DNA of 64,000 nucleotides from an uncultured Clostridia bacterium (GTDB lineage Bacteria; Bacillota; Clostridia; Christensenellales; Borkfalkiaceae), in the NCBI GenBank assembly GCA_944376295.1, contig CALWCE010000007.1, forward strand, positions 37,438 to 101,437. The letters run 5' to 3'. The translations under genes and the position numbers were made by a program. The notes under the pieces are model-generated. The model made no database searches. It was given only the letters and a program-made list of their open reading frames with translations, and was not told where the DNA came from. This document shows, piece by piece, positions 56,054 to 57,201 of the stretch (position 1 is the first letter of the stretch; every line of letters starts with the position of its first letter).

Positions 56054-56340
56054 GAGATTCACGAATTTCTTTCGCTGCGCGAAACAAATTCCGTGAGGGG
56101 TGAGGTTTGGGCATCTAAATTGCTTTTTCGCCCGCGAACGCGTCGGAGCAAGGCAAACTTTGCCAGCCCCTCCTTAGGTCGGGGCAGGGCTTTGATGCCT
56201 GCTCCTCCTTTTCCCACAAATCTTTTGCTTCGCAAAATCTTTGCGGGAACCCTATATCATTCTAAGAACAATAAGCGCCATGTATGGCGCAAATTGAGTC
56301 CCGCAGCGGAGGGGAACCCTCCTTGCGGGATTTATTTTTA
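56054..56340 (+). ncRNA. Tandem structured RNA element, copy 1 (with internal extension)
   Basis: Four hairpins in order. H1 is a conserved 44-nt hairpin (56054-56097, TTTCGC-TGC-GCGAAA core). After a 120-nt structured extension comes H2 (TTTTGC-TTC-GCAAAA inside TCCC/GGGA, about 56212-56248). H3 is GCGCCA-TGTA-TGGCGC (56285-56290 for its 3' arm). Then the invariant GCAAATTGAGT leads to H4 (TCCCGCA...TGCGGGA, 56299-56330, inner GGAGGG-GAA-CCCTCC) and a T-rich run. The same order occurs in copy 2 with different but still paired stems. Confidence 0.5.
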
Positions 56341-56494
56341 GAGATTCACGAATTTCTTTCGCTGCGCGAAACAAGTTCCGTGAGAAAATTTCGCGAAAAT
56401 CTTTTTGCTCCGCAAAAATCTTTCCGCGAGATGAAGCAAAAGTATTTGCAAATTGAGTGAGCCGGCGCAAGGGGACCTTGCTTGGCTCATTTTA
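56341..56494 (+). ncRNA. Tandem structured RNA element, copy 2 (compact)
   Basis: H1 (56341-56384) matches copy 1 at 43 of 44 bases; the one change turns an A-U into a G-U pair. H2 is TTTTTGC-TCC-GCAAAAA inside TCGCG/CGCGA. H3 is GCAAA-AGTA-TTTGC. GCAAATTGAGT follows, then H4 (TGAGCC...GGCTCA, 56458-56489, inner GCAAGG-GGA-CCTTGC) and TTTTATTA. H4 in each copy resembles an intrinsic terminator. This and copy 1 account for most of the gap between tsf and the next gene. Confidence 0.5.
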
Positions 56495-56536
56495 TTACTC
56501 TTCGCTTTCAATATCCTAAAAATTTCAAGGCGGGTA

Positions 56537-56565
56537 TTGATTTTTGCGGCGGGGCGTGCTATAAT
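56537..56565 (+). promoter_or_regulatory. Promoter of the cytidylate-kinase-like gene
   Basis: TTGATT (56537-56542), a 17-bp spacer and TATAAT (56560-56565). Confidence 0.8.
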
Positions 56566-56619: not shown

Positions 56620-57201
56620 ATGAAGCACAGGATCATCACCGTCAGCCGTGAATTCGGCAGCGGCGGACGCACGATCGCCAAGGAAGTGGCGGAAAAGCTC
56701 CGCATCCCCTGTTACGATCAGGAACTCATCGAAAAAGTGGCGGAAGAGAGCGGCTTTGCGAAGGAATATATCGCCGAACACGGCGAACATACGGGCAACT
56801 GGCTCACCAATGCCTTTGCCGCGGCGGCGTCTTACTACGGGCCCATCGGCAGGGACTTCGTGTGGATGGCGCAGCGCAAGGTCATTTTAGAGCTCGCCGA
56901 AAAGCATCCCTGCGTCATCGTCGGGCGGTGCGCGGACTTCATCCTGCGTGACAGGGCAGACCTTCTCAAAGTGTTCATCCATGCCGATCCCGCCTTCCGT
57001 GCCGACCGCATCGTGCGCGTCTACGGCGAGCGGGAAGATTCGCCCGAAAAGCGCATCCGCGACAAGGATAAGCGCCGCATGGCATACTACCGTTACTATA
57101 CCGACATCGACTGGGGCGTCGCCAAAAATTACGACATCTGCCTCGACAGCGGCACGATCGGCATCGACCGCTGCGCTGACATCATCTTCTCGCTCTTCTG
57201 A
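56620..57201 (+). CDS. Cytidylate kinase-like family protein
   Basis: A 193-residue P-loop kinase of the AAA_26/cytidylate-kinase-like group. It begins ITVSREFGSGGRTIAKEVAEKL, where the P-loop has the shortened GSGGR form typical of this group, and has VIVGRCADFIL and an RIRDKDKRRMAYYRYYT lid-like segment. The natural substrate is uncertain; it is not the canonical Cmk. It interrupts the tsf-pyrH neighbourhood. AAGGAGGG lies before ATG 56620; the longer frame begins before the promoter. Confidence 0.85.
   Translation: MKHRIITVSREFGSGGRTIAKEVAEKLRIPCYDQELIEKVAEESGFAKEYIAEHGEHTGNWLTNAFAAAASYYGPIGRDFVWMAQRKVILELAEKHPCVIVGRCADFILRDRADLLKVFIHADPAFRADRIVRVYGEREDSPEKRIRDKDKRRMAYYRYYTDIDWGVAKNYDICLDSGTIGIDRCADIIFSLF

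Follow-up and report, generated by a model that had tools for sequence, protein, structure and literature searches.

A structured, family-specific interspersed repeat docked behind stop codons in Clostridia

The region behind tsf in the window, by which we mean the whole stretch of 64,000 nucleotides analysed here, carries a tandem array of a real, structured and family-specific interspersed repeat that is docked behind stop codons. The units probably belong to a family of short (~105-175 nt), modular, non-coding and non-autonomous mobile repeats of REP/BIME-like or BOX-like character, whose identity lies in a chain of hairpins and in the motifs that accompany it, and the window's tandem pair is simply one array among many, no special regulatory RNA. 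An earlier note, made from the sequence of the window, had offered three readings of the pair, namely a tandem regulatory RNA, a pair of terminator-ended small RNAs and a structured mobile repeat. It is the last of these that is supported, the element being dispersed, restricted to one family, modular and present or absent at orthologous sites.

We examined the region between the tsf stop codon and the gene at 56620 by reading, repeat search and folding as well as by comparison with Rfam. The first three of these establish that two adjacent copies (56054-56496) are present in the proposed order (Table 1). As described before, H1 is identical between the copies at 43 of 44 positions, the single change converting an A-U into a G-U pair within the stem; the arms of H3 are rewritten from GCGCCA/TGGCGC in copy 1 to GCAAA/TTTGC in copy 2, and both stems of H4 are rewritten as well, with a conserved GCAAATTGAGT before H4 and a T-rich end after it in both copies. 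The comparison of the second hairpins fails: what had been taken for H2 of copy 1 (56208-56252) forms, together with 56139-56207, part of a different dispersed repeat inserted in the linker, and the first element itself supplies H2 of copy 2, a second 5' hairpin that is optional. The two are hairpins of similar style without positional correspondence. Copy 2 (56341-56490) folds with a z-score of -4.33 and the H3-H4 part of copy 1 with -6.81, none of 200 dinucleotide shuffles being equally good in either case, while H1 plus linker of copy 1 gives a weak signal (z -1.87; 5 of 200 shuffles equally good). A sigma-70-like promoter (10/12 matches, TG before the -10) is seen at 56537-56565, directly downstream of the array and ahead of the gene at 56620.

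Table 1. Anatomy of the array behind tsf (positions in the window)
Feature	Position	Strand	Remark
tsf stop codon	56050..56052	+	first hairpin begins 5 nt downstream
Copy 1 (long form), 5' hairpin H1, TTC...GAG	56058..56097	+	
Copy 1, linker, first part	56098..56138	+	
Second dispersed repeat ('class B') inside the copy 1 linker	56139..56254		contains the former 'H2' of copy 1; 98% identical copy at C1:230273-230389 (BLASTN); occurs elsewhere without the first element
Copy 1, linker end with conserved motif ACAATAAG	56255..56275	+	
Copy 1, hairpin H3	56275..56290	+	
Copy 1, conserved AAATTGAGT	56291..56299	+	
Copy 1, two-part hairpin H4	56300..56330	+	
Copy 1, T-rich end	56331..56340	+	
Copy 2 (short form), 5' hairpin H1	56345..56384	+	
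Copy 2, optional second 5' hairpin, TTCGCG...CGCGAG	56390..56430	+	
Copy 2, short linker	56431..56435	+	
Copy 2, hairpin H3	56436..56449	+	
Copy 2, conserved AAATTGAG	56450..56457	+	
Copy 2, two-part hairpin H4	56458..56489	+	
Copy 2, T-rich end	56490..56496	+	

Reading of the matching loci in the window's own genome reveals a modular composition, with long and short forms, an optional second 5' hairpin and, in some units, a double H3. The general unit opens with a 5' hairpin of the form TTC...GAG, of which there are several types, followed in many copies by a second one and then by a linker that is either long or very short; its 3' part consists of ACAATAAG (in the long forms), H3, CAAATTG(A/G)G, the two-part H4 and a T-rich end. 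Pieces of the class B repeat that is nested in copy 1 are found without the first element at six loci (L131, L132, L147, L151, L153 and L159). The class B repeat also occurs, with its own hairpin, in L130, and L165, L167 and L174 contain the same composite of the two.

The statement that the pair matches no known class holds for Rfam, which gave no match at gathering scores in the whole window; across three related loci four matches at E 0.3-0.85 were obtained, all far below the gathering scores. A regulatory RNA or riboswitch was rejected as an explanation, given the lack of an Rfam match and of a gene set common to the arrays. We recognised no paper describing the repeat family in the open literature, which is weak evidence of absence as the subscription literature lies mostly outside that search, and a single 201-base query found no match in phage and plasmid collections.

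In the genome to which the window belongs (G000; 2.03 Mb in 30 contigs), BLASTN with the region returned 86 matches at E<=10 and 73 at E<=0.01, counts that include the region itself and the nested repeat. A covariance model of the unit (R1) gave 40 matches in this genome and 45 in the sister species G001, and it found matches in 54 of the 61 genomes of the genus; the other seven (G010, G021, G044, G046, G054, G058 and G067), some of them nearly complete, had none. With one copy as BLASTN query, matches were seen in 9 of 41 genomes, 25 of the 41 being members of the genus. Model R2 matched 17 of 297 genomes of the order, all within the window's family (nine from the window's genus, seven from g18 and one from g21, with none from any other family), and 4 of 391 genomes across the class, again all within that family; weak matches may have escaped these two scans, since only 13 or 10 candidates were scored per genome and the filters were strict. 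The sequence behind tsf in one member of the genus (G022) is the same as in the public record CALVTZ010000051.1 (uncultured Clostridia bacterium). Many copies thus exist, as they would for the inert, decayed repeat that the earlier note had set against its own interpretation, but pairing is kept across them and they are not simply decayed.

To describe the pairing we aligned 42 long-form units from G000 and G001 (43 were selected and L171_6077 was left out by hand; units with a double H3 and short forms were excluded by the selection). In the paired columns of H3 and H4, 95.1% of the cells hold standard pairs and 12 of the 16 pairs change on both sides, with a covariation score of 0.610, where slid partners reach no more than 0.219. 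This score, the share of paired cells and the count of cells changed on both sides exceed a shuffled control, whereas the counts of pair types and of doubly changing pairs do not; the cells are moreover not independent events, because many units share few stem types. A second set came from 57 loci of other genus members, in which R1 gave 98 matches, 88 of them distinct. Here 93.5% of the cells are paired and both sides change in 14 of the 16 pairs; the score of 0.693 compares with at most 0.240, in an alignment that was fitted to the model and hence leans towards structure. The covariance-model search that had been suggested for the pair finds pairing kept in homologues and shows the pair to be part of a dispersed family and not unique. 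Mean identity is 0.67 in paired and 0.80 in unpaired core columns, and it rises to 0.98-1.00 for AAG before H3 and CAAAT after it. The short flanking motifs ACAATAAG and CAAATTG barely change while the stems covary, and residues of the H4 internal loop are conserved between rewritten stems (C 0.94, T 0.95; single-strand motifs up to 1.00). Across the family, dozens of paralogous folded copies per genome have their stems rewritten and keep the fold, the two motifs and the place at the stop codon.

Of the 44 arrays of G000, G001 and the window, 32 have their first hairpin 0-9 nt behind the stop of an open frame of at least 60 codons; two further arrays start at 52 and 56 nt and ten lack any such stop, a few of the starts having been called about 3 nt late. 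By eye, the arrays of L152, L162 and L139 also start within a few nucleotides of a stop. With a cruder caller, 21 of 48 arrays in other genus members have the first hairpin 0-9 nt behind a stop, compared with 5.8% of 16,067 random positions, and the former figure is probably low as the hairpin finder mis-chained several arrays. Docking so close to stop codons exceeds what passive tolerance of insertions would obviously give and points to a rule of insertion or of selection, of which we found no description in the open literature we searched. In 36 of 44 cases the array and the nearest gene upstream of it share a strand, and a convergent gene end falls within 20 nt of the array's 3' end in two of 44; both counts are approximate, because the home-made gene caller is imperfect and placed false antisense genes at tsf (in the window and in L160). 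Genes ahead of arrays that passed NCBIfam cut-offs encode a TrpB-like enzyme, YchF, FtsY, GyrB, uracil phosphoribosyltransferase, a RelA/SpoT protein, the acetolactate synthase small subunit, an RNase E/G protein, S18, a YifB-type ATPase and acetate kinase, and the 19 upstream genes scanned, three of them without any family, share no common theme.

Presence and absence at orthologous sites, by which mobile elements can be recognised, was observed at three sites. Two of them hold arrays in G000, G001 and G072 and only ~20-35 nt in G051 and G043; at one of the two, the GC-rich terminator that follows the stop codon in G051 and G043 lies beyond the array in G000, which places the array between the stop codon and the native terminator. 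The third site is occupied in G000 and G001 and empty in G051 and G043. No terminal inverted repeat is evident by eye, and the empty sites are too diverged for target duplications to be read.

At tsf, units begin 1-5 nt after the stop in five close genomes (G000, G001, G072, G051 and G043), their hairpins differing from one another, and none of the 15 other genus members that could be read in the right direction has a unit at the stop, 13 of them having an ordinary-looking terminator by eye (10 of the 29 loci were left out of this comparison, and G001 was read from L160). Behind ackA four genomes carry units with different hairpins, G000 having ~140 nt of other sequence between stop and unit. 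The type of the first hairpin differs, as judged by eye, at 13 of 15 orthologous sites of G000 and G001 (16 pairs minus L138/L167, which has no first hairpin in G001). In the pair L139/L166 the downstream unit is identical and the first hairpin alone has been exchanged, although its left flank is the gene itself. Two further loci are of note here: at L158:2228-2329 a broken H4 combines the left arm of one stem type with the right arm of another and adjoins a second unit, as if tandem units had recombined, and at L135:5880-6180 a unit stands between two near-identical ~50-nt copies of a neighbouring stretch, as if unit and stretch had been duplicated together.

The shared units at tsf (five genomes) and ackA (four) also fit retention for function and in this respect speak against a mobile repeat, as do the docking beyond passive tolerance and the failure to find a helper enzyme among those searched. 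The unit might then be a cis-acting RNA element of 3' untranslated regions that serves a host function such as the protection of mRNA 3' ends or the tuning of translation termination, was spread by duplication and has its folds kept by selection on the transcript. Such an element would accord with the orientation of the arrays relative to the upstream gene (subject to the imperfect caller), with the docking at stop codons, with the strong covariation and with the retention of position at tsf and ackA despite different stems, and ribosome stalling in E. coli at REPs no more than 15 nt from a stop codon is reported in the available text of PMC12306157. We nevertheless consider it unlikely, as the arrays have no common gene set, seven of the 61 genus genomes are without a match, and both the base pairs and the strand comparison tell against selection on RNA. 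G-U pairs make up 18 of the 1,264 standard pairs in H3 and H4, the outermost H4 pair excluded (1.4%), as opposed to 11 of 118 (9.3%) in the acceptor and T stems of ten tRNAs from the same loci, a small sample that served as yardstick. The raw difference between sense and antisense folding looked significant (Wilcoxon p 5.5e-4; 114 distinct cores, L185 left out), but dinucleotide shuffles show a sense-strand advantage at least as large, and in other genus members that of the units falls below it (L185 again left out). As the shuffles gave the same or a larger difference, we dropped the strand difference as evidence for RNA. Since G-U pairs are rare and the strand bias stays within that of shuffles, the data do not demonstrate selection on RNA: the earlier note was right about the covariation, which is very strong, and went too far in attributing it to RNA structure.

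Recognition of DNA hairpins or template switching during replication could produce the same pattern of covariation, and the accessible part of PMC8794818 proposes that template switching can create and maintain such stems. Carried to its end, this would mean that template switching rewrites both arms of a quasi-palindrome at the same time and that the hairpins so formed are reassorted when copies recombine, the fold itself being under little selection. The nearly pure Watson-Crick stems with few G-U intermediates, and the fact that stems differ as blocks between copies, are in keeping with such a mutational origin. As a full account we judge it improbable, because it leaves dispersal and docking unexplained and because the internal loop of H4 and the single-strand motifs are conserved between rewritten stems, so that something must recognise the whole; the conserved loop residues and flanking motifs suggest that recognition or selection acts too. 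We favour a repeat that is recognised as a folded nucleic acid, be it RNA or DNA. The family is a place to examine which of three sources yields such covariation, namely recognition of DNA hairpins, template switching in replication or a function of the RNA, and it is a warning that covariation alone is no proof of a functional RNA.

That H4 and its T-rich end form a dispersed transcription terminator, stopping transcription behind the gene, is a doubtful proposition, and the related reading, in which the pair would be two small RNAs with terminator ends, is weak. H4 is rich in GC and has T-rich sequence behind it, a run of eight T at the tsf locus of G051, and the close clade is without the ordinary terminator that inspection by eye shows at tsf in 13 of the 15 other members of the genus, but the consensus T stretch is short and offset from the stem, a native terminator lies beyond the array at the first of the empty sites, and three arrays (L134, its orthologue in L173, and L156, the first two being orthologous) begin right after the T run of a terminator and not after a stop. 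A terminator scan of the + strand reports neither H4 of the window, which counts little as it models unbroken stems only. At the tsf locus of G014 (L249) a similar hairpin is likewise found behind the terminator.

As for how a mobile repeat of this kind might propagate, an enzyme acting in trans would recognise the folded strand and insert new units at that edge of the 3' untranslated region which adjoins the stop codon. The older hairpin would then be lost when the linkers of tandem units recombine, and from such pruning the partial remnants and the exchange of first hairpins between sister species would follow. Effects on the host, such as protection of mRNA 3' ends, translation termination or read-through, would be secondary. 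More tentatively, the units may be mobile elements of a new class, targeted specifically to stop codons by a fold-reading mechanism that is coupled to transcripts or to translation termination, with every arriving unit settling between the stop and its predecessor. Were this true, the stop-proximal hairpin would be swapped like a cassette, gene and remaining array being left in place, and what is inherited would be a fold and two short motifs, not a sequence.

No helper enzyme was found among Y1 transposases (four genomes) and reverse transcriptases (16 genomes). A Y1 transposase (PF01797) occurs in G000 as three near-identical copies of one element and was not detected in the three other genomes searched, G001 (~92% complete and rich in units), G004 and G022; its presence does not follow copy number in these four genomes, and it was rejected. 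Reverse transcriptase was rejected as well, being present in 5 of 16 genomes, two of them without units, and missing from several that are rich in units. The copies of the Y1 element (L176, L177, L178) share a stretch of ~746 bp in two cases and ~486 bp in the third, at more than 99% identity.

Among known systems, the BOX elements of Streptococcus pneumoniae are close in architecture. As described in the available text of PMC3049150, they too consist of short interspersed modules (boxA-boxB-boxC) in varying combination that would be highly folded if transcribed, they cluster with other repeat families as the units do here, and they are over-represented between convergent genes, which is read there as tolerance downstream of coding sequences and amounts to a shared 3' bias. 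The same text reports terminal inverted repeats and target duplications for BOX, neither of which is evident here, and does not describe covarying stem types or docking at stop codons, both of which are features of our family. The host of BOX belongs to a different branch of the phylum, and the likeness is one of architecture as described there. Also in S. pneumoniae, the terminator-like repeat SPRITE is interspersed and folded, lies in 3' regions and has a U-rich end, but according to the same partial text it is a single 18-bp duplex with a U-rich tract, unlike the chain of hairpins with conserved single-strand motifs described here.

REP/BIME repeats with their RAYT transposases, to the extent covered by the available text of PMC3733652 and PMC12306157, are likewise dispersed extragenic palindromes that form mosaics, lie partly near stop codons and have stems that vary with family and lineage. 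In the broad sense, REP/BIME-like repeats are palindromes present in many dispersed and mainly extragenic copies, and this is what we find. The narrower hallmarks are lacking: the REP/RAYT tag GTAG/CGTC stands near a hairpin foot, on either strand, in one of 40 first hairpins, the REP-associated Y1 (HUH) transposase was not detected in the unit-rich G001, and the units, unlike REP, string together several hairpins joined by conserved linkers. Of the 4,072 REPs predicted in E. coli, the accessible part of PMC12306157 places 446 no more than 15 nt from a stop codon, compared with 32 of 44 arrays within 9 nt here.

Other palindromic families, mutually nested, share the same intergenic regions, with the forms CTCCCTCAGTC...GGGAGCTGTC, CCTCCCC...GGGGAGGTGGC and GCGAGAAAGCG... 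(L133:9280-9880, L134:2100-2550, L217 and L220). One such palindromic repeat appears to lie within the loop of a first hairpin in L191 and in L276, and at L135:2767-3219 a 151-nt composite that includes the right half of H4 and another hairpin is present in three tandem copies.
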